Shown in pieces: positions 1,337 to 41,404 of a stretch of DNA of 64,000 nucleotides. This stretch comes from Flaviaesturariibacter aridisoli (lineage in GTDB: Bacteria > Bacteroidota > Bacteroidia > Chitinophagales > Chitinophagaceae), in contig NZ_SKFH01000005.1 in assembly GCF_004343705.1 (NCBI RefSeq), positions 1 to 64,000 on the forward strand, read 5' to 3'. The notes beneath the pieces are model-generated. The model did not search any database and was not told the origin of the DNA. It was given only the letters and a program-made list of their open reading frames with translations. How positions within the stretch are numbered: the stretch's first letter is position 1; the number at the start of each line of letters is the position of its first letter. The translations under genes and the position numbers were made by a program.

Positions 1337-1984
1337 TTTCCAGCTGAAGCGAAGTGTTTCCAACTGAAGGCGAAGTCTTTCCAATAGCCGGCAAAGTCTT
1401 TCCGGTCTGGTCAAAATGTTTCCAGCCATTGACGAAGTGTTTCCAATCAAAGTCAAAGTGTCTCCAACGGTCGGCGCGGTATTTCCAACCAAAAGCTAAC
1501 TGTTTCCAATGGGCGGAAAGTCTCTCCTGTCAATGACCAAGTGTTTCCAGCGGTTTACAAAGTCTTTCCCGGTTCCGTCAAAGTATATTCCGGTTCTTCC
1601 CAAATGTATTCCGACGCTGACGAAACATATTCCGATGCTGACAAAGTGTATTCCGACGCCGGCGAAGTGTATTCCGGTCGCGACAATGTGTATTCCGGTG
1701 CCGACGAAGTCTATTCCGGCCCTGCCGAATGAAATTCCGGCAGCCCTCACTGCCATTCCGGAGCCGACACACGCCTTTCCGGCAGGCGAAACTGCCATTC
1801 CGGCGCCGACACAACGGTTTCCGGAGTTGACACAGTCGTTTCCGGAGTTGATACAGTCGTTTCCGAAGCTGACCCAGTCGTTTCCGATGCTGACTCTGTC
1901 GTTTCCGGAGGCGACAGAGTCTATTCCGAGGCAAGCGAATCGTATTCCGATGCTGACAAAGTAAATTCTGGCGGTGTTATATGA
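1337..1984. repeat. Array A: about 31 degenerate 21-bp repeats
   Basis: Read by hand, this stretch divides into about 31 consecutive units. All are 21 bp except units 1, 4 and 9, which are 20 bp. Each unit opens with TTTCC or TATTCCG, often has GAC near the middle, and ends in AAGTG, AAGTC or a variant. The remaining half is variable. The first units read TTTCCAA; the middle ones (1586-1732) read TATTCCG; the last ones (1817-1921) read GTTTCCG with CAGTC ends, so neighbours resemble each other most. Because 21 is seven codons, long frames stay open on both strands and would encode heptapeptide repeats. The 20-bp units shift frame, so coding is unlikely. No function is known to me. Confidence 0.9.
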
Positions 1985-2160: not shown

Positions 2161-2395
2161 GACGGCGCCTGAAGGAAGGTGTTTGATGGGCCCCGCAAGG
2201 CCCCCGGCACCATTTCCGGCAACTGGGCGGCGGAGCCCCGACGACTTTCCCGCCCATTTACCGGCATCGGCACTGCTCCCCGGCCCCCAACCCCTAAACC
2301 TTCAAACCTCCTAAACCCCCTAAACCCCCCTTTTGCCGAATGCGCCCATCCCTTCCCGTGGTCCTTTCGTATTTTTAATATAGATACCTGTGCCG

Positions 2396-5300
2396 ATGAA
2401 CCGCCTGACCCGCTGCCTCCTTTCCTTTTTATTGCTCACCGCTGCCGTCCCCGCCGGGGCCCAGGGTCGCCCCCTGCTGCTCAAAACCGGCCCGCAGGCC
2501 GTGCCCGCCCTCAGCGCCGCGCTGGTGGATTCCTTCAACCGGACCCTGCCCCGCGTGGGTGGACGGGCGCAGCTGGTGCTTCAGTTTGACCGCATTCCCA
2601 CCGACGCGGAACGCAAATGGCTGCTCGGCGGCGGCGTGGAGCTCCTCCAATATGTGCCCGAAGGCGCCTATACGGCGCAGGTGCGCCTGCCGTTGAGCGA
2701 AAACCTGCTGGCACAGGGCGGCGTACGCGGCATCTGGGCGCTCCGCGCCGAGCAGAAGATGGACCCGCTGCTGGGAAGCGGGACGGTACCCGCCTGGGCC
2801 GTGAAAGTAACCGGCACCGTCAACGTGCTGGTACGCATCCCCGACGCAACGCCCGTGGCCGGCGCCCTCGCCGAGCTGCAAACGCGCGGCTTTTTCATAA
2901 CGAACCGCGACTGGCTTACCTGGCGTATCGTGGGCCTTCAGGTGGCGGTAGCCCGCCTCCGCGAGCTGGCGCTCCTTCCCATCGTAGACTACGTGCAGGC
3001 CGAGCAGCCGGTGCAGGGACTGAATTTCAACAACCGCTCCGGTGCCCGCGCCAACGTCCTCAACGCGCCGCTGGCGCAGGGCGGCCGCGCCCTCAACGGT
3101 GAGGGCCTCGTGCTCGGCATCGGCGACGACGCCGATGTGCAATCGCACCCCGACTTCACCGGCCGCCTCATCGACCGCTCGGTGCTTACCCAGACCAGCC
3201 ACGGCTACCACACTACCGGCACCCTTGCCGGCGCCGGCATCGTAAACGAGCTGTACCGCGGCATGGTGCCCAAGGCCACCATCGTGTCGTCGTTCTACTC
3301 GGGCATCCTCTCCAACGCCGCCACTTACCACCAGGACTACGGCATGGTGCTCACCAACAACTCTTACGGCAACATCGCCGAGTGTTCGTACATGGGCCTT
3401 TACGACATCTACGCGCAGGCCCTCGACCAGCAGGCCTTCGACCTGCCCGAGCTGACCCACGTGTTTGCCGCCGGCAACAGCGGCGCCTCCACCTGTGCGC
3501 CCTTTCCGCAGCGCTACCACACCGTGTACGGCGGCTACCAGAGCGCCAAGAACGTGGTTACCGTCGGCGCCACCAGCGACTCGGGCCTCGTGTCTTCCTT
3601 CAGCAGCCGCGGCCCCGTGCGCGACGGCCGCGTCAAGCCCGAAGTGGTGACGCAGGGTGCCGCCGTGATCTCCACCGTAGCCGGCAACACCTACGGCTCC
3701 AACCAGGGCACCAGCATGTCGGCGCCGGCCGTCACCGGCGGAATGGGGCTGCTCATTCAACGCTACCGCCAGCTGCACAGCGGCGCCAACCCGAAGGGCG
3801 CGCTGATCAAAGCCGTGCTCTGCAACGGCTCCACCGACAAAGGCACCGACGGCCCCGACTACAACTACGGTTACGGGTTCATGAACCTGCTGCGCAGCGT
3901 GGATATGCTCGAAAACAATCACTACCTCGCGGCCAACGTGGCGGCTTCGGCCACGGCCACCCATTCGATCGCCGTACCCGCCAACAGCGCGCAACTGAAG
4001 GTGCTGCTTTACTGGCACGACCCCGCGGCCTCGCTCATTGCCTCCAAAACACTTGTCAACGACCTCGACCTCGAAGTGGTCAACCTGTCCAACAACACGG
4101 TGCTCCCTTTTCGTCTTGATACGTCCATGGGCAGCCTCGGCAGCGCCGCCCTGACCGGTGCCGATCACCTCAACAACCTCGAACAAGTAGTGATCGACGC
4201 GCCGCCCGCCGGCAACTACACCGTTCGGGTGAAAGGCACCGCCATCACGCAGGGCGGCAGCCAGGACTACTACCTCGTTTGGGATGCGCTGCCCGTTTCG
4301 CTGCAGCTGACCAACCCCGTGGGCGGCGAAGGCTGGGCACCCGGCGACATCGTTAAACTGAACTGGGAGGCCTACGGAAACCCGTCGGCGACCTTTACGC
4401 TGGAATACAGCACCGACAACGGCGCCAGCTGGAACGGGATTGCCAGCGGCCTCGACGGCGCACGCCGCATCTATACCTGGACCGTGCCCCCGGTAGCTAC
4501 GGGTGCCGCTAAAGTGCGCATCACCCAATCGGGCACCGGCCTGAGCAGCAGCAGCAATGCCTTCGTGATCGCCACGCTGCCCGTGCTGACGATGGCCGCC
4601 ACGGCAAGCCAGTGCGAGGGCTACATCAACTGCAGCTGGACGCCGGTCAGCGGCGCCACCGATTACGAGCTGATGATGCTTCGCGGCGATGAAATGGTTT
4701 CGATGGGAACCACCGCGGCCAACAGCTATGTGATCAGCGGCCTCAGTGCCGACACAACCTACTGGGTGGCCGTGCGTCCGCGCATCGGCGGGCAGCCCGG
4801 GCGCCGCTCGGTGGCCCTGTCGCGCCAGCCCAACAACGGCTCCTGCAGCGGCAGCTTTTCCGACGGCGACCTGAAGCTGAATGCCGTCACCGGCCCGGTC
4901 AACGGGCGCCTCAATACGAGCAGTGCCCTCAGCGCCGTCAGCACGCTGTCGGTGCAGGTAAAGAACCTCGACGACGCGGCCATCACCGGCTTTGCGATGA
5001 AATACAGCGTCAATGGCGGTGCGTGGGTGAGCGAGGCCGTGGCCGCCAGCATCAACGCCGGCGCTACGTATAACTACAACTTCACCAACAAGATCAACCT
5101 CAGCGCCGCGGGCTCGTACAGCATCCGCGCAGTGGTGAAGAACAACGGCACCGATCCGGTGGCCGCCAACGACACGCTGACGGTGGTGATCAAGCAACTC
5201 GCCAACCCCGTGCTCACGCTGCCCTTTACCGACGACCTCGAAGGCATGGCCAACGTGAGCTATCGCTTCGACCAGGTGGGCATCGAGGGCGACGATCACT

Positions 5301-7735
5301 TCGACTTCCAGCGCAACTCGGGCTATGCGCGCCTGCGCACCTGGGTCAACAGCGGTTTCGCCCACTCGGGCACCCGCGCCGTAACGCTCGACATGGATCG
5401 CTTCAACGGCAGCAACAGCACGAACTACCTGGTCGGCACCTTCAACCTTTCCGCCTACGATACCGCTACCAGCGACCTGCGCCTCGGCTTCGCCTTTCGT
5501 AACCACGGCGAGGACCTGAATGCGGCCAACAAAGTGTGGGTACGCGGCAACGACGGCGCCACCTGGGTGGAAGTATACGACCTCGGCGCCAACGGCGGCG
5601 ACGCCGGCACCGAAACCGTGGTGAACGGTGTGGAGGTGGGACGCCTGCTGCGGGCCGCCGGCCAAAACTTCAGTTCGAGCTTCCAGGTACGCTGGGGCCA
5701 GTACGGCACCTACCCCGCGGTGGACCTCTACGGGGGCAGCGGCTATACTTTCGACGACATCCGCCTCTACGAAGCGGTGAACGACGTGCAGCTGCTCAGC
5801 ATCCTGGCGCCTGTGGCCAATGCCTGTGGCCTTACCAATGCGAGTACCATCAGCGCCCGCATCCGCAACAGCTCGTATGGAACGCTCAGCAACATCCCCC
5901 TGCGCTACCGCATCGACGGCGGCGCCTGGGTGAGTGAAACTTATCCCTCCCTCGCTGCCAACGCCAGCGCCGACTTCTCTTTCGCCACCGGCGCCGATCT
6001 TTCGGCACCCGGCGCCCATACCGTGCAGGTGCTGGCCGACATGGGTGGCGACAACGTGCACGAAAACGATACGCTGTCGCTGTCGCTGGTGAACGCGCCG
6101 GTGTACAGCACCTTTCCTTACCTCCAAAACTTCGAGAGCAGCAGCGGCAACTGGTACAGCGGCGGCAAGAATTCTTCGTGGGAATGGGGCACGCCGCAGT
6201 CGGCGAAGATCGCCCGTGCCGCCTCGGGTGTGAAGGCCTGGAAAACGCGCCTCGGCGGCAACTACAACGACCGCGAGGAATCCTGCCTCTACTCGCCCTG
6301 CTTCAACCTGTCCGGGCTCAGCAACCCGACCCTCAGCTTCAGCCTCGTGCTGGATCTCGAAGACTGCGGCAGCACCGTTTGCGATGCGGCCTGGGTCGAG
6401 TACTCGCTCGACGGCGCCACCTGGACCAAACTCGGTACCGCGCTGACCGGTACCAACTGGTACAACAAAACGTCGGCAAACGTATGGAGCCGCCAGAATT
6501 ACACCGTGTGGCGCGTGGCCTCCGCATCGCTGCCCGTGGGCGCTTCGGCCCTTCGCCTGCGCTTCGCCATGAGCTCGGACGAGTCGACGAGCCGTGAAGG
6601 CATCGCCATCGACGACGTACACATCTTCGACAACCTGGGCATCTACACCGGGCCCACACCCGGTACGCCGGCCACCCAACCCGTGTCGGGCAGCAATTGG
6701 ATTCACTTCACCGAAGGGGGAAAGCTCCTGGCCTCCATCAACCCGCAGGGGCAGGATCTCGGCAGCACCGCCGTGCAGGCCTACTTCGACACCAGCGTGT
6801 CGCACTACACCAGCAACCAGTATTACCTCGGGCGCAGCCTCAGCATCAAGCCCGCCACGCGGGTGCTGGCCGACTCGGTTACCGTGCGTCTTTATTTCAG
6901 CGAGCGCGAGTCGAACTTGCTGATCAGCGCCACGGGTTGCGCGGGCTGCGCCAAACCCAGCACCGCTTTCGACCTCGGTGTGTCGAAATACACCGACGCC
7001 GACCTTTCGCACGAAGACGGGAGCCTCGCCAACAACACGGGCGGCAGCTGGAAATTCTATGGATCGGCAGCGCGCACGATCGTGCCTTACGACGGTGGTT
7101 ATTATGCCGAATTCAAGGTGAAGGATTTTTCGGAGTTCTGGTTCAACTCGGGCGGCATCCAGGGCGCGCCGCTGCCCGTGCGCTTCCTCTCCTTTACCGC
7201 CCGCCGCAACGGTGCCGCCGTCCGCCTGGACTGGGACGTGGCGCTGGAAGAGAACGTAGCGCGCTACGAAGTGGAAGTGGCGGAAGGCGAAGATGCCCTG
7301 CGCCGTGGCCAGTACCGCCTGCTGGGCAGCGTGGACCCGCTGGGCACCGCCACCGGCAGCCGCCGCTACAGCTACCTCGACGACCGCCCGGGCAAGAGCG
7401 GCACCTGCTACTATCGCCTCCGCGTGCGCAATGCCGACGGCTCCTGGCAATTCTCGGCCATCCGCCCGGTGTTGTTCAGCGAGCAATACGAATGGAATGT
7501 ATACCCGAATCCGTCCGCCGGTGTCCTTCACCTGAACTTCCACGCCGCCGACGGCAGCACGCTGCGCCTCCGCCTCTACGACGGGCAGGGCCGCCTGCTC
7601 CGCGACTGGAGCCGCGTTGCTTCGGGCTTCGTGGAAAAGGAAACGATCGACCTCGATGGCTTCGCTGCGGGTGTATACCTGCTGCAGGCCGATGGACCGG
7701 AAGGCGTGCGTTCGTTCCGCCTTTACAAACGCTAG
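2396..7735 (+). CDS. Secreted S8 (subtilisin-like) serine peptidase with T9SS sorting domain
   Basis: The protein is about 1779 residues and predicted to be exported. A signal peptide (MNRLTRCLLSFLLLTAAV) is followed by a pro-region of about 210 residues, then a subtilisin domain at roughly 220-505. Triad candidates are D244/D245 in GIGDDADVQ, H269 in HGYHTTGTLAG and S440 in GTSMSAP. The oxyanion Asn lies in AAGNSG. A jelly-roll, P-domain-like segment follows, then fibronectin/CARDB-like modules and two MAM-like cleaved-adhesin-type modules. The last 80 residues are a type A T9SS sorting domain (YPNPSAGVLHLNF to FRLYKR), so the protein should cross the outer membrane by the system that PorX (17347) regulates. 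I chose the ATG at 2396; a GTG two codons upstream is possible. A minus-strand frame open across the whole gene is a composition shadow. Confidence 0.92.
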   Translation: MNRLTRCLLSFLLLTAAVPAGAQGRPLLLKTGPQAVPALSAALVDSFNRTLPRVGGRAQLVLQFDRIPTDAERKWLLGGGVELLQYVPEGAYTAQVRLPLSENLLAQGGVRGIWALRAEQKMDPLLGSGTVPAWAVKVTGTVNVLVRIPDATPVAGALAELQTRGFFITNRDWLTWRIVGLQVAVARLRELALLPIVDYVQAEQPVQGLNFNNRSGARANVLNAPLAQGGRALNGEGLVLGIGDDADVQSHPDFTGRLIDRSVLTQTSHGYHTTGTLAGAGIVNELYRGMVPKATIVSSFYSGILSNAATYHQDYGMVLTNNSYGNIAECSYMGLYDIYAQALDQQAFDLPELTHVFAAGNSGASTCAPFPQRYHTVYGGYQSAKNVVTVGATSDSGLVSSFSSRGPVRDGRVKPEVVTQGAAVISTVAGNTYGSNQGTSMSAPAVTGGMGLLIQRYRQLHSGANPKGALIKAVLCNGSTDKGTDGPDYNYGYGFMNLLRSVDMLENNHYLAANVAASATATHSIAVPANSAQLKVLLYWHDPAASLIASKTLVNDLDLEVVNLSNNTVLPFRLDTSMGSLGSAALTGADHLNNLEQVVIDAPPAGNYTVRVKGTAITQGGSQDYYLVWDALPVSLQLTNPVGGEGWAPGDIVKLNWEAYGNPSATFTLEYSTDNGASWNGIASGLDGARRIYTWTVPPVATGAAKVRITQSGTGLSSSSNAFVIATLPVLTMAATASQCEGYINCSWTPVSGATDYELMMLRGDEMVSMGTTAANSYVISGLSADTTYWVAVRPRIGGQPGRRSVALSRQPNNGSCSGSFSDGDLKLNAVTGPVNGRLNTSSALSAVSTLSVQVKNLDDAAITGFAMKYSVNGGAWVSEAVAASINAGATYNYNFTNKINLSAAGSYSIRAVVKNNGTDPVAANDTLTVVIKQLANPVLTLPFTDDLEGMANVSYRFDQVGIEGDDHFDFQRNSGYARLRTWVNSGFAHSGTRAVTLDMDRFNGSNSTNYLVGTFNLSAYDTATSDLRLGFAFRNHGEDLNAANKVWVRGNDGATWVEVYDLGANGGDAGTETVVNGVEVGRLLRAAGQNFSSSFQVRWGQYGTYPAVDLYGGSGYTFDDIRLYEAVNDVQLLSILAPVANACGLTNASTISARIRNSSYGTLSNIPLRYRIDGGAWVSETYPSLAANASADFSFATGADLSAPGAHTVQVLADMGGDNVHENDTLSLSLVNAPVYSTFPYLQNFESSSGNWYSGGKNSSWEWGTPQSAKIARAASGVKAWKTRLGGNYNDREESCLYSPCFNLSGLSNPTLSFSLVLDLEDCGSTVCDAAWVEYSLDGATWTKLGTALTGTNWYNKTSANVWSRQNYTVWRVASASLPVGASALRLRFAMSSDESTSREGIAIDDVHIFDNLGIYTGPTPGTPATQPVSGSNWIHFTEGGKLLASINPQGQDLGSTAVQAYFDTSVSHYTSNQYYLGRSLSIKPATRVLADSVTVRLYFSERESNLLISATGCAGCAKPSTAFDLGVSKYTDADLSHEDGSLANNTGGSWKFYGSAARTIVPYDGGYYAEFKVKDFSEFWFNSGGIQGAPLPVRFLSFTARRNGAAVRLDWDVALEENVARYEVEVAEGEDALRRGQYRLLGSVDPLGTATGSRRYSYLDDRPGKSGTCYYRLRVRNADGSWQFSAIRPVLFSEQYEWNVYPNPSAGVLHLNFHAADGSTLRLRLYDGQGRLLRDWSRVASGFVEKETIDLDGFAAGVYLLQADGPEGVRSFRLYKR

Positions 7736-7768
7736 GCTGCTATGCACGAGAAACGTATCAAAAACGAA

Positions 7769-10638: not shown

Positions 10639-12633
<1,995 letters not shown>

Positions 12634-12820: not shown

Positions 12821-13069
12821 GAAGTTTCTTCTTTCCGGGGAAACGGAGCCCGTTTGGGAAGAAAAGTTTCTTGCGAACGGAGAAACATTGCCTCCGGCCG
12901 GAGCAATATTTCTCCAGGGAAAGAAAAGTTTCTTCGTTCCGATGAAAAGTTGCCTGCCGGGAGGGAAAAGTTTCTCCTTTTTGGAGAAAAGTTTCTCTCT
13001 GTAGAGAAAAATTGCGCTCCAGGGAGCAAAGTTTCTCCCCGGAAGGCAAATTTTCTCCCGTGGGAAGGC
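12821..13069. repeat. Array B: 12 degenerate repeats of about 21 bp
   Basis: Twelve units of 20-22 bp follow one another, most opening with AAAAGTTTCT or AAANATTGC. Many units contain a small dyad in the variable half, such as CTCC...GGAG, CTCT...AGAG or GCTCC...GGAGC. Unit sizes of 20, 21 and 22 bp break any reading frame, although the minus strand would give RNFS-type heptapeptides. The array lies in the divergent spacer between gyrB and the response regulator at 13261, upstream of the gyrB promoter. The period equals that of arrays A and C but the unit sequence is different. Confidence 0.85.
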
Positions 13070-14346: not shown

Positions 14347-14769
14347 ATGAACCGCGAGCTACTGGAAAAAAGAACGAACCAATTTCATGTGGACGTGCTC
14401 CGGCTTTGCAAGGAGTTGCCAAAAGATGCGGCCGGTTTTGAAACGGGCAAGCAGGTAATCCGGTCTGCCGGCTCGGTAGGAGCTAACTACCGGGCTTCAC
14501 GGCGTTCCAAGTCGGACAAAGACTTTCTGTATAAGATGGAGGTCGTACTGGAAGAAGCAGACGAATCGCATTATTGGCTCGGGGTGATTGGCGATTCGCA
14601 AATGATCATCGGCGCGGGGGTGCTCCGGCTGACCGGCGAAGCCAATGAGCTGACGGCCATTTTCGCGGCCGTATGTAAAACGACGAAAGCGAAACTCAAT
14701 GCGGCGAAAAAGACAAAAAAAGAGGAACGAAAAAGTCGTTCCTCAAGGTCGCAAGATCCCGAATCCTAA
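14347..14769 (+). CDS. Four-helix-bundle protein (TIGR02436 / 23S rRNA IVS-type)
   Basis: This 140-residue protein belongs to the four-helix-bundle family related to ORFs in 23S rRNA intervening sequences. Typical family blocks are VDVLRLCKELPK, IRSAGSVGANYRAS and FLYKMEVVLEEADESHYWL. The family's molecular role is not established. The 3' end is odd: the last roughly 20 residues (Lys/Arg/Ser-rich) are encoded by the lpxD terminator hairpin and by the edge of a heptamer tract. The stop overlaps the lpxD stop by four bases on the opposite strand. The gene sits between inverted heptamer tracts, like a small cassette. The body of the protein is well supported; the tail may be read-through sequence. 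Confidence 0.88.
   Translation: MNRELLEKRTNQFHVDVLRLCKELPKDAAGFETGKQVIRSAGSVGANYRASRRSKSDKDFLYKMEVVLEEADESHYWLGVIGDSQMIIGAGVLRLTGEANELTAIFAAVCKTTKAKLNAAKKTKKEERKSRSSRSQDPES
14715..14744 (-). terminator. Intrinsic terminator of lpxD, inside the convergent gene
   Basis: On the minus strand, arms of 9 bp (GAGGAACGA/TCGTTCCTC) with a 5-nt loop are followed by seven T. It lies 22 bases past the lpxD stop and is embedded in the last codons of the four-helix-bundle gene on the plus strand. Confidence 0.85.
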
Positions 14770-15833
14770 ATCTGAGATCTGAGATCTGAAATTTTTTCCG
14801 CTGTCAGTTGCTTCACGATCTTCTCCAGCTCATAAATCCTTTTCTCCAGCTCGGGGAGGTTGCGGAACACGGCCTGCGAGCGGAGGGCGCTGGTGTAATC
14901 GGCGGCGGGAGAGCCGGTGACGGAGGAGAAGGCTTCCTTGAGCGATTTGGAAACGCCGCTCTGGGCATTGATGCGCGAGCCGTCGGCGATCTGGATGTGG
15001 CCCACGAGGCCGGCCTGTCCGCCGATCATGACGTTGGCGCCGATCTTGGTGGAGCCCGATACGCCGGCCTGCGCCGCGATGACGGTGCTGTTGCCGATCT
15101 CCACGTTGTGGGCGATCTGGATCAGGTTGTCGAGCTTGGCGCCGGCGCGGATGACCGTGGAGCCCATGGTAGCGCGGTCGATGGTGGTGTTGGCACCCAC
15201 TTCCACGTTGTCTTCGATCACCACGTTGCCGATCTGCGGTACTTTCTTGAAGGAGCCGTCGGCCTGGGGCGCGAAGCCGAAGCCGTCGCCGCCCACCACC
15301 GTGCCGGCGTGGATGGTTACGTTGTTGCCCAGCACGCAGTCGTGGTACACCTTCACCCCCGGGTGGAGGAGGCAGTTGTCGCCGATGGTGACGTTGTCGC
15401 CGATAAAGGTGCCCGGGAAGACCTTGGTGCCGGCCCCCAGCTTCACGTTGTTGCCGATATAGGAGAACGCGCCCACGAAGACGTCGGCGCCGATTTTAGC
15501 GGATTCGGAGATGTAGCTCGGTTGCTGGATGCCCTTCATCTGCTGGGTGGCCATTTCCTGGTATTTGCTCAGGAGTTGCGCGAAGGCGCTGTAGGCGTCG
15601 GGCACGCGGATGAGAGTGGGCGTGACGGTCTGCCGCAGTTCGTAGTGCTCGTTGATGATGGCGATGGTGGCGCCCGTGGAGTAGAGGAAATCCTCGTATT
15701 TCGGGTTGGCCAGGAAGGTCAGCTGCCCCTCGGTAGCTTCTTCGATCTTTCCGAACGACGACACGGTCGCATCGGCATTCCCCTCAATTTTCCCGTTGAG
15801 CAATAGAGAGATCTGGGCGGCTGTAAACTGCAT
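14766..15833 (-). CDS. lpxD: UDP-3-O-acylglucosamine N-acyltransferase
   Basis: This 355-residue LpxD transfers a 3-hydroxyacyl chain from ACP to UDP-3-O-acylglucosamine in lipid A synthesis in the cytoplasm. Residues 1-100 form the uridine-binding domain. Residues 105-295 form the left-handed parallel beta-helix of hexapeptide repeats (KIGADVFVGAFSYIG onward). GGDGFGFAP is the LpxD signature. The catalytic His lies in QIAHNVEIG. A C-terminal helix follows (LPELEKRIYELEKIVKQL). The last eight residues (ISDLRSQI) are encoded by the heptamer tract at 14770-14790, so the repeat has become coding. No other lpx gene is beside it, unlike many Bacteroidota that cluster lpxD-lpxC-lpxA. Confidence 0.96.
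   Translation of the reverse strand: MQFTAAQISLLLNGKIEGNADATVSSFGKIEEATEGQLTFLANPKYEDFLYSTGATIAIINEHYELRQTVTPTLIRVPDAYSAFAQLLSKYQEMATQQMKGIQQPSYISESAKIGADVFVGAFSYIGNNVKLGAGTKVFPGTFIGDNVTIGDNCLLHPGVKVYHDCVLGNNVTIHAGTVVGGDGFGFAPQADGSFKKVPQIGNVVIEDNVEVGANTTIDRATMGSTVIRAGAKLDNLIQIAHNVEIGNSTVIAAQAGVSGSTKIGANVMIGGQAGLVGHIQIADGSRINAQSGVSKSLKEAFSSVTGSPAADYTSALRSQAVFRNLPELEKRIYELEKIVKQLTAEKISDLRSQI
14770..14790. repeat. Heptamer tract ATCTGAG (3 copies), right arm of an inverted pair
   Basis: The tract reads ATCTGAG, ATCTGAG, ATCTGAA. It is the reverse-complement type of the tract at 14211-14238. It lies within the last codons of lpxD. Confidence 0.85.
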
Positions 15834-39260: not shown

Positions 39261-39419
39261 GCCCGCCTTCGCTTTCGGCCCGCTTCGGGGGCGAAAGCTT
39301 CGGCGGGCGGTGCCCGGTTACGTCAGGGCTTCGGGGGCGAAAGCTTCGGCAGGCGGTGCCCGGTTACGCCAAGGCGTCGGGGGCGAAAGCGTAGGCGGGC
39401 GGTGCCGACTCCGTTCTCC
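39261..39419. repeat. 46-bp tandem repeat (about 3 copies) with GCGAAAGCTTCGGCGGGC palindrome
   Basis: Units at 39282-39327, 39328-39373 and 39374-39419 are each 46 bp. The first two are nearly identical; the third diverges at its end. Each contains a GCGAAAGCTTCGGCGGGC-like palindrome. An inverted fragment (GCCCGCCTTCGCTTTCGGCC) lies at 39261-39280. The 13-bp core AAAGCTTCGGCGG also occurs inside nrdJ at 57279-57291. Confidence 0.85.
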
Positions 39420-39434: not shown

Positions 39435-40115
39435 TCAGTGCCCCGCCTTCAGCCGCCGCACTTCTTGCAGCGTCAGCGGCACATAGGTAATGCCCATGCG
39501 GGCTGCGTTTTCTTCAACGGTGAGCGTGAAGCCGGCCTTGCGGCGGCGCTCGTTGATGCTGGCCGGGTCGCGCACCGGCCACACGATCATTCGGAAGGCT
39601 TTCTTGCCCGAGCTGCTGTCCAGGTATTCGAAACCGTGTCCCTGCGTGCCCCATTCCTGTTCCTTGCCGGCATACATCAGAGAGCGGTCGAGCATCATGG
39701 CGTAAAGGCGGAAGGGTAATTCGTTCTTGTCAGCGGCTGCTTTGAGCAGTGGGAGGTAGGTGTCGATCTTAGGGGAGTGCTGGATCACGTAAAAGGCGGC
39801 CTCGTTGGCCGGCGAATCGACCAGCGTGCGGCCGGGGTAACCATAGCGGGCGATGATCGCTTCGATCCGCTGCAGGTTGGCGGAGTCGATCCGGGACTGG
39901 CGCTGCCACAGGGCGAAGTCCAGCTGTTCTGTGGTCGTTTGGTACACGCGGGCCAGCGAGTCGGCCGGCGCCCCCTTGGCGCCCATCAGGGCGCGGTAAT
40001 ACTGGTCGGTGCGATAAATGCTGTCCAGCTCGCGGCGGAGGGATTCGTTACGGGCGGTCTGGGCAAAGCTGCCAGTGGCGGCGAGCAGGGCCAGCAAAAA
40101 CAAGTATCGGCGCAT
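39435..40115 (-). CDS. Exported DUF6624-like protein
   Basis: This is a 226-residue protein with a signal peptide (MRRYLFLLALLAATGSFAQ), using the Met at 40115. Blocks IEAIIARYGYPGRTLVD, NEAAFYVIQHSPKIDTYLPLL and ALMYAGKEQEWGTQ-like RSLMYAGKEQEWGTQG match the family I know as DUF6624, of unknown function. It is probably periplasmic and mostly helical. Its upstream spacer holds array C; its downstream spacer holds the 46-bp repeats. Confidence 0.82.
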   Translation of the reverse strand: MRRYLFLLALLAATGSFAQTARNESLRRELDSIYRTDQYYRALMGAKGAPADSLARVYQTTTEQLDFALWQRQSRIDSANLQRIEAIIARYGYPGRTLVDSPANEAAFYVIQHSPKIDTYLPLLKAAADKNELPFRLYAMMLDRSLMYAGKEQEWGTQGHGFEYLDSSSGKKAFRMIVWPVRDPASINERRRKAGFTLTVEENAARMGITYVPLTLQEVRRLKAGH

Positions 40116-40258
40116 AAAGGGAATTGTACCGGTAAGTTCGGGAGTTTGCGGCAATGCCGGACGGCCTGGCGCAATTTATAGCCACAGCGGCCGGGAACGG
40201 CATTCTTACTGCTGCAAGCTCCATCCGGAACCCCGTCATTGTGTCATTGTTCGTGGCC

Positions 40259-40532
40259 TTCGACGCACCGTCAACGAGTTTCGACGGAAGGTATCCCGCC
40301 CTCCGACGCCCGGTACGTGCTCAATGACGCGTCGTACGTGCCCAATGACGCGTCGTACGGGCTCAATGACGCAACGTACGCGGCCCATGACGCCCTGTAC
40401 CCGGTTAATGACGCACGGTACGGAGCCGCCGACGCTGCGTCCGTTGCCTTCGACGCCCTGTATCTGGTCAATGACGCCCTGTACGACCGCTCCGACGCTA
40501 TGTCAGAACGGCCCGACGCCCTGTATTCCCCT
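40259..40532. repeat. Array C: 13 degenerate 21-bp repeats with GACGC and GTAC cores
   Basis: Thirteen units, twelve of 21 bp and one of 22, open with AATGACGC, TTCGACGC or a variant. Most carry GTAC or GTAT eight bases further on; the other half varies. Units at 40323-40364 are nearly identical; later ones diverge. On the plus strand the frame would give DAxYxxN heptapeptides, but there is no start signal and the 22-bp unit shifts frame. It lies in the 630-base spacer between two minus-strand genes. The remainder (40533-40747) contains a perfect palindrome GTCCCGCGCGGGAC near 40613 and other GC-rich dyads but no gene. Confidence 0.88.
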
Positions 40533-40747: not shown

Positions 40748-41404
40748 TCAGAACTTGTAGTTCACCCCGATGATCAGGTGGGCGGCATTGTTCTTCAGCG
40801 GCGGGTAACCGGCGCCGGAGGCAGGCTTGCTGATGTTGGTGAGGCCCAGCTGGTCGCGGATTTCGATGGTGAAGCCGAAGCGCTTGTGGAGCGGAAGCTC
40901 CACGCCGAGGCCGCCCATCACGCCGAAGTCGGTGTGCTCGTAGAGGCGCTTGGTGTCGGTGGCTTCATGGCCGTCGTAGGTATCGTGGGCACTGAGCAGG
41001 AAGCCCACGTAGGGACCGGCGACGGCGTACAAGCGCTTGCTGGGGCCGAAGGAAACTCCCGCCAGCAGGGGCACGTTGAGGTAGGGGAGGTTGGTATAGG
41101 CCTGGTAGGTGCCGTTGGGTACGCCATTGGGATCCGTAAAGGTGACGGAGTTGCGTTGCTTCGCGCCGTTGAGGCTGAAGCCGGCGCCGGTGCGCAGAAA
41201 CCAGCGGTCGTTGAGCGCCCAGGAGGCGTAGATGCCCTGGTAGGTGCTGGGGCGCGCGGTGACCAGGTCGTTGTAGGCGGAAGATCCGCGCAGCGAGGCG
41301 ACGCCGAAACCGGTTTCGAGGCCGACCTTCAGGCGGCCGGTCTGGGCAAAGGTGCCGGCGAACAGCAGCAGGCAGCCCAGGAGCAGGAACGATGTTTTCC
41401 TCAT
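40748..41404 (-). CDS. Outer-membrane beta-barrel protein (PorT-family type)
   Basis: The 218-residue protein has a signal peptide (MRKTSFLLLGCLLLFAGTFAQ) followed by eight or so amphipathic strands (GRLKVGLETGFGVASLRG, YLNVPLLAGVSFG, LYAVAGPYVGFLLS, DFGVMGGLGVEL) and a C-terminal strand ending VNYKF. This is the small Bacteroidota OMP_b-brl_2 class, often labelled PorT family. It is not evidence for the T9SS PorT protein itself. It is probably a porin-like or structural protein in the outer membrane. Array C lies beyond its 3' end. Confidence 0.85.
   Translation of the reverse strand: MRKTSFLLLGCLLLFAGTFAQTGRLKVGLETGFGVASLRGSSAYNDLVTARPSTYQGIYASWALNDRWFLRTGAGFSLNGAKQRNSVTFTDPNGVPNGTYQAYTNLPYLNVPLLAGVSFGPSKRLYAVAGPYVGFLLSAHDTYDGHEATDTKRLYEHTDFGVMGGLGVELPLHKRFGFTIEIRDQLGLTNISKPASGAGYPPLKNNAAHLIIGVNYKF

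Follow-up and report, generated by a model that had tools for sequence, protein, structure and literature searches.

Intergenic tandem arrays that share a two-helical-turn step and differ in sequence in a genome in or near Flaviaesturariibacter

Non-coding tandem arrays in the genome studied here advance in steps of two helical turns, or in a double step of ∼42 bp, and their sequence differs freely from one array to the next. The arrays keep register while ∼30% of their bases change, and a subset of them is dyad-symmetric more often than chance. We tentatively read these fast-turnover arrays, at a probability of about 0.42, as held to two turns because proteins bind them in a phased row along one helical face. 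The window, by which we mean the whole 64,000-nucleotide stretch that was analyzed, contains three such arrays (A, B, and C) and lies in a genome, G000, that comprises 84 contigs and 4.37 Mb. The GyrB encoded there shares 94% identity with the protein of Flaviaesturariibacter flavus 17J68-12, and the genome belongs to or near Flaviaesturariibacter (Chitinophagaceae). Below, C-numbers are contigs of G000, L-numbers are sampled stretches of DNA, and other G-numbers are related genomes; G010, a relative of the same genus, and G016 are the two closest relatives compared.

Arrays A, B, and C in the window

The features that bear on the three arrays are as follows.

1-1336, + strand: insertion sequence (IS) of the IS256/Mutator family, which cuts the left edge of array A (Pfam Transposase_mut, 6e-100)
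58-1305, + strand: transposase gene of this IS (Pfam Transposase_mut, 6e-100)
1337-1984, no strand: array A, between the IS and a + strand subtilase gene (start ∼2390)
1337-1586, no strand: first block of array A, 12 units, mainly of TTCCAa...AAAGTGT type; limits by eye from the unit list
1587-1733, no strand: second block of array A, 7 units of ATTCCGaygCtGACGAAgTgT type; block read by eye from the unit list
1818-1922, no strand: third block of array A, 5 units of TTTCCGgagTTGACACAGTCG type; limits by eye from the unit list
2062-2074, + strand: terminator-like hairpin GCCGCGTAGCGGC with a T-run, downstream of array A; weak, as the window has 4 such sites and 2.7 are expected by chance
2390-7735, + strand: subtilase gene with a Por secretion tail, to the right of array A
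10639-12633, − strand: gyrB, beside array B
12821-13069, no strand: array B, 20/21-bp units of GGAGAAAAGTTTCTCC type, strongly dyad-symmetric, upstream of gyrB; limits taken from the initial annotation
39435-40154, − strand: DUF6624 gene, flanking array C
40259-40532, no strand: array C, 21-bp units GACGCnCnGTACGnGCnCAAT, between the DUF6624 gene and an OMP beta-barrel gene
40748-41404, − strand: OMP beta-barrel gene, flanking array C

A cyclic profile fit divides array A (1337-1984) into 31 units, 26 of 21 bp, four of 20 bp, and one of 22 bp, with the consensus tTtCcG..g.yGaCaaAGTsT, which confirms the ∼31 units of 20-21 bp read in the initial annotation. The self-identity of the array is 0.61 at lag 21, 0.58 at lag 42, and 0.53 at lag 63, and its mean over lags 1-70 is 0.25. 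The 22-bp unit lies at 1755-1776 and the unit directly after it has 20 bp, so that phase is regained. The similarity of units drops with distance, from 0.63 for neighbors to 0.51 at eight units, which indicates that local copying did occur and was followed by drift; the earlier description of the array as unlike ordinary slippage is thus only half right. The second block aligns to an array on contig C61 over 183 bp at 73%, free of gaps. Dyad symmetry is not significant in array A (z 0.68), and a 300-base piece folds no better than its column-permuted copies (z +0.42 and +0.64). No plasmid or phage record resembles array A at E 1e-5. For array A itself, the two-turn step, local copying, the relative on C61, and the insertion of the IS (see below) are what is established.

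In array C, lag 21 leads with an identity of 0.61, and there is neither dyad symmetry (z 0.17) nor an excess of folding. The periodicity of array B is weaker and mixed (0.47 at lag 21, 0.48 at lag 62), and its dyad symmetry is the clearest of all, with z 7.3 and fold z of -8.5 and -8.9. The claim that A, B, and C have one period and different unit sequences is borne out, with the reservation just given for lag 21 in B.

Three further observations concern the surroundings of these arrays. Two antiparallel, overlapping ORFs of 1781 and 1772 aa occupy 2390-7747; the one on the plus strand is the subtilase with the Por secretion tail, and the one on the minus strand has no Pfam match. A 46-bp tandem repeat at 39282-39406 (2.7 copies, 91%), just upstream of a DXP-synthase gene, is outside the 21-bp class. 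A 54-bp periodicity at 14890-15478 runs within the − strand gene 14766-15833, and the syntenic place in G010 and in G016 has the same.

A preferred period and the structure of the units

An autocorrelation survey covered 1.25 Mb, or 29%, of G000, and lags of 21, 22, 41-43, 63, or 83-85 (periods of 21n ± 1) were counted as the 21-bp class. Twenty-eight of the 39 non-coding periodic loci, two of which overlap as entries on L046, are in this class, where ∼6 are expected if lags 10-90 are equally likely. Among the loci called coding, 15 of 75 have class lags; the remainder have other lags, nearly all multiples of three. A set of 0.85 Mb of real sequence gives 49 periodic loci with 24 in class, coding loci included, and a codon-block shuffle of the same 0.85 Mb gives four, two of them in class. 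These counts and the contrast with the shuffle lead us to conclude that 21 bp is a preferred period in G000. The initial annotation had predicted that arrays of one period, with units that vary from locus to locus, occur across the genome, had proposed that unit length is independent of sequence, and had stated that the absence of a genome-wide preference for 21 bp would speak against its proposal; the preference is present, and both the prediction and the independence of unit length are supported in the 29% of the genome that was read.

Extrapolated from the 28 arrays in 29% of the genome, perhaps a hundred such non-coding satellite-like arrays exist in G000. Arrays make up ∼0.7% of the sampled sequence and 5% of the sampled intergenic DNA. 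We note that the G000 sample is not random: C61 and parts of C3, C4, C14, C17, C28, and C29 were picked from sequence matches, of which only that of C61 is strong. The gene model is a crude codon log-odds caller, which may label arrays as coding (L037:14323 and L042:6259 are non-coding by eye and absent from the non-coding list) and coding repeats as non-coding (L032:8333, L165:14039, L170:7708); it failed on low-GC relatives, with coding fractions of 0.0-0.04 in G003, G006, G015, and G019+G020. The neighboring genes of the 28 arrays are oriented −+ in 10 cases, −− in 9, +− in 5, and ++ in 4, and gaps of at least 300 bp number 42, 49, 36, and 49, respectively, so no clear preference for gene orientation is seen in this comparison.

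At a stricter threshold, with coding loci included, 26 of 44 loci in the 1.25 Mb of G000 are in class. In G010 (300 kb) all 8 are, in G016 (255 kb) 2 of 6, and in G011 (100 kb) the single locus; a further 862 kb, drawn from eight more genomes of the genus and two of the family, has 6 loci, none of them in class. The signal in G016 is weak, given these 2 of 6 loci and the resemblance of L195 to another repeat; of its seven non-coding periodic loci, three are in class, one of them clear (L146). Another class-lag locus of G016, L145:12069 (0.47), is some 2 kb upstream of gyrB and distinct from the B site. Around gyrB in other Bacteroidota, 4 of 14 periodic loci are in class (79 loci scanned), and the class is therefore not confined to the genus.

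Forty-one arrays chosen for class lags were fitted (29 from G000, seven from G010, three from G016, and two from other Bacteroidota), some of which may be coding. The best period is 20.98 with a standard deviation of 0.28, a spread partly imposed by the choice for 21n lags; since the set was chosen in this way, the independent support for the period is the 28 of 39 non-coding loci in class. In 22 of the 41 arrays, units two apart beat neighbors by at least 0.10, such that the true repeat is ∼42 bp. In 12 of these 22, neighboring 21-mers are unrelated (0.24-0.33) and yet the repeat is 41-43 bp, so that mere descent from an ancestral 21-bp unit does not explain the quantum. The existence of periods of 41 and 43 means that the reading frame is not the constraint.

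Dyad symmetry exceeds z 2, relative to column-permuted units, in 18-20 of the 41 arrays (20, 19, and 18 in three runs); in the rerun, the count was 18 of 41 as compared with 6 of 50 simulated arrays (12%; Mann-Whitney p 3e-4). The arrays also fold better than their column-permuted copies, with a mean z of -2.64 on each strand and 21 and 22 of the 41 below -2. Control intergenic stretches have mean z values of -0.76 and -0.93, with 7 and 16 of 48 below -2, so on one strand a third of the controls also pass. Equal folding on both strands fits symmetric DNA better than one RNA strand. Compensatory change within units was not shown, and the average went against it (mean z -0.46, 6 of 41 arrays at p<0.05), in a design that is confounded for 42-bp arrays. 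As a separate observation, a 42-bp array in the Bacteroidetes MAG RH-23may17-974 (L128:5079-5288) has strong hairpins whose stems vary between units and stay paired by eye; the automatic test did not bear this out. No 10.5-bp phasing of A/T, as expected for bending, is seen (second harmonic 0.110 vs 0.120 in simulated arrays), and the averaged profile of 39 arrays has no common AT-rich edge at the array ends. The word CCGGA occurs at least five times in 11 of the 32 arrays counted, nine of the 41 having been left out, and the other 21 are below that level; the maximum for any word in 20 permutations is 6. Its density in 26 arrays is four times that of the remaining intergenic DNA, in a test that left out the 12 arrays outside G000 and three more.

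Families, turnover, and the insertion sequence

The arrays form small families at different places. Array A has its relative on C61, array B on C16 (where the match is on both strands) and weakly in G011, and array C on C42; L164 has relatives on C37, on C15, and at three places in G010. Units differ among arrays without being strictly unique to one locus, since each of A, B, and C is related to an array at another place in G000. At E 1e-4, sequence matches link no more than nine pairs of distinct, non-overlapping arrays in the set of 41. The flanks of the family pairs compared do not match at E 1e-4, and the same holds for the G011 and C16 arrays; C42, C37, and C15 were outside this comparison.

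Arrays also appear and disappear from one species to the next within the genus. The B site has no array by scan in either G010 or G016, and its neighbors are the same in both; at the A site, neither has an array by scan, with synteny seen on the right side only. Near C, no array is found in G010 by scan, and G016 has a 21/42-bp array of other sequence ∼1 kb from the expected position of C. The site of L044 in G016 retains the neighboring gene and has no array in the ∼500 bp seen. That both relatives lack an array at A and B argues against a conserved function of these two positions. The initial annotation had regarded orthologous sites devoid of unit conservation as evidence against its proposal; in this check, the A and B sites of both relatives are arrayless by scan and the G016 array near C is unrelated. 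Elsewhere, L010:3808-4217 and L176:1138-1522 of G010 are period-41 arrays with no unit match, beside genes that are 33% identical and in flanks with 57% DNA identity; this is perhaps a candidate for a shared site whose array sequence was replaced.

Sixteen homologous array pairs, 24-36% different, have 43 gap openings per 1091 mismatches (0.039), and 195 non-array intergenic alignments made with the same settings have 894 per 7383 (0.121). Nine of the 11 gapped array pairs still span equal lengths on both sides. A gap rate of about one-third of the control suggests a constraint on spacing and not on sequence, and it is no more than suggestive, since a single family contributes ten of the 16 pairs and tandem repeats favor gapless alignment. 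Homologous arrays are in register at different places in two species in the cases of L164, L139, and L182.

The IS beside array A has eight left ends in G000, and several contigs break inside it. Three right ends were found, identical through 1336 (the last common base); the 8-bp target duplication places the end at 1335. The duplication GTTTCCAG is common, by eye, to the left flank on C44 and to the right flank beside array A, and this pairing implies that the IS was inserted into the start of an existing array A. The other sites are as follows.

C42/C64: duplication GCGGCTAC, at the edge of the relative of array C
C6/C44: duplication of 7/8 bases, within a 43-bp dyad array, identity 0.79
C39: one side seen; the flank is a 21-bp array with peaks at 21, 42, and 63
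C54: one side seen; the flank starts with a hairpin and is not an array of the 21-bp class

Four of five IS sites abut 21/43-bp arrays, or three of four without array A, where the search began; the binomial values are post hoc. The array beside the right end on C6 (L218) has 43-bp units with two dyads each and an identity of 0.79. In G010, a transposase relative that is 48% identical adjoins a 21-bp array at one of the five sites seen (up to 9 hits, three sites one-sided), and in G008 the one site seen (2 transposase hits) is not at an array. The genome of G016 (92% complete) has no such transposase at E≤1e-60. The bias toward arrays is strong for the IS of G000 and weak elsewhere, and it is likely that this IS targets existing arrays.

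Interpretation and comparison with known systems

If the arrays are rows of protein contacts, new units would arise when one, two, or three units at a time are duplicated in place, and arrays would occasionally be copied into new intergenic sites. Their sequence would then drift, and changes of length would be removed, since the array would present phased contacts on one face of the helix. The putative binder would most likely be a dimeric, oligomerizing DNA-binding protein with a loose sequence preference. We count the 28 of 39 loci in class, the arrays with a double step, the periods of 41 and 43, the low gap rate, the dyad excess, the folding on two strands, CCGGA, and the IS sites as evidence for this protein-contact reading, and the lack of dyad or fold excess in A and C, of compensation, and of A/T phasing, together with the empty sites in relatives, as evidence against it. 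Intergenic placement with no clear orientation bias and tolerated IS insertion favor a role in organizing the chromosome over the control of single genes. A bolder and unlikely form of the idea is a lineage-specific chromosome scaffold, in which an oligomerizing dimeric protein would sit on intergenic arrays, the two-turn spacing of half-sites and not the sequence would be constrained, unrelated arrays could replace one another at new sites without loss of function, and the IS256-family transposase would land on protein-coated or palindromic stretches.

The strongest competitor, possible although we prefer the protein-contact reading, is neutral copying with a two-turn step, in which stretches of 21 or 42 bp are duplicated, one at a time, during replication or repair of a protein-wrapped or supercoiled template and the copies decay in a functionless array. 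It would account for the drop in unit similarity with distance in array A, for the absent or different arrays at the sites compared in relatives, for the unclear orientation preference, and for the tolerated IS insertions. It does not predict approximately 3-fold fewer gaps than in the control at ∼30% divergence, homologous arrays that stay in register at different places in two species, or the dyad excess. The present data do not separate these two readings firmly.

It is improbable that the arrays encode tandem hairpin RNAs that serve as a sponge or a processing substrate. Folding below z -2 in 21-22 of the 41 arrays fits this proposal, as does the transcription of the 52-nt satellites of Bacillus coagulans (PMC8625621, from the portion available), and the terminator-like hairpin after A, near chance, would also agree with it. 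However, a stable, strand-specific fold is not found, the mean z being the same on both strands, and A and C fold no better than control. No Rfam family is present in the window at the gathering threshold, and 900-2700 contains no promoter-like site in a scan for sigma-70 of the E. coli type only. The structured RNA proposed for A in the initial annotation is thus unsupported, while about half of the other arrays fold well, and on both strands.

An origin of the arrays from the IS256-family element beside A, as its product or a part of it, is not likely and indeed has very little probability. The four of five sites at arrays and the one of five for the relative in G010 would be in keeping with it, but eight copies are too few for the 28 arrays that 29% of the genome yielded, at least one clear array (L146) exists in G016, where a transposase of this kind is missing at E≤1e-60, and the paired 8-bp duplications are those of insertion into arrays that already existed. 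Coding heptad repeats of coiled-coil type (7 codons, 21 bp) are rejected for array A and have almost no probability as the explanation of the arrays: a unit of 21 bp is divisible by three, and array A is crossed by ORFs of 253, 151, and 118 aa, but these have no Pfam match, stops occur in every frame over 1337-1984 (4, 3, and 9 on +; 1, 7, and 3 on −), and steps of 20, 22, 41, and 43 bp break any frame.

Bacterial satellites of constant length and free sequence have so far been described without a mechanism. The genus offers a workable case, with array-rich genomes (G000, G010) beside others that have none in the 20-180 kb sampled of each, hints that spacing is constrained and sequence is not, a subset with dyad symmetry, and an IS that finds arrays. 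Should selection be what imposes the constraint, a protein that coats DNA and recognizes helical phase instead of sequence would be implied; otherwise, the implication would be replication or repair that copies in two-turn steps.

Plasmid iterons are direct repeats of ∼20-22 bp with two-turn spacing that are bound on one face. They have one sequence per replicon and lie at the origin with a Rep gene, unlike the arrays here, which have many sequences at many sites. Array A is unlike them in its neighbors, which are a transposase and a subtilase with no Rep gene beside the array, and plasmid records gave no match. REPs are short palindromes of shared consensus, unlike the phased, free-sequence arrays here. 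Particular IS elements are drawn to these extragenic palindromes (Tobes and Pareja 2006, PMC1525189, as far as its available text goes), which makes REPs the nearest precedent for the targeting of arrays by the IS. Literature on 21-bp intergenic arrays in Bacteroidota or Chitinophagaceae, or on two-turn repeats, offered nothing to the point in the parts available (PMC6749651 included).

The initial annotation knew of no named system that fits, and this was wrong. The arrays of G000 match a kind already in print, the 20-21-nt tandem repeats that Subirana and Messeguer (2021, PMC8161180; we refer throughout to the available part of this paper) describe from Bacillus and other groups, with a constant size and a variable sequence. 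A genome has several families of these repeats, equal in length and unlike in sequence; the repeats are generally non-coding and mostly species-specific, contain a short characteristic sequence in most arrays, and are abundant in few lineages. Its authors point out that the unit equals two helical turns, and their guesses are a polymerizing nucleoid protein or small RNAs. The likeness extends to length (20-23 nt with little variation there; all 31 units of A at 20-22 bp here), to several families of equal length and different sequence (A, B, C, and others), and to non-coding character (stops in all six frames of A, periods of 41 and 43 elsewhere). For a short sequence common to most arrays, the candidate here is CCGGA, which reaches five occurrences in 11 of 32 arrays and stays below that level in the other 21. 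The same paper describes 52-nt Bacillus satellites that, like our arrays, have constant length, free sequence, partial conservation between strains, and short sequences together with their reverse in one repeat, and that differ from them in the length of 52. In that part of the paper, no word starting with Bacteroid is found, and a word search for palindrom-, dyad, hairpin, and symmetr- has no hits; the arrays here are from Bacteroidota and not from Bacillus, and the present analysis looked at their dyad symmetry, register under divergence, sites in different species, and targeting by an IS.
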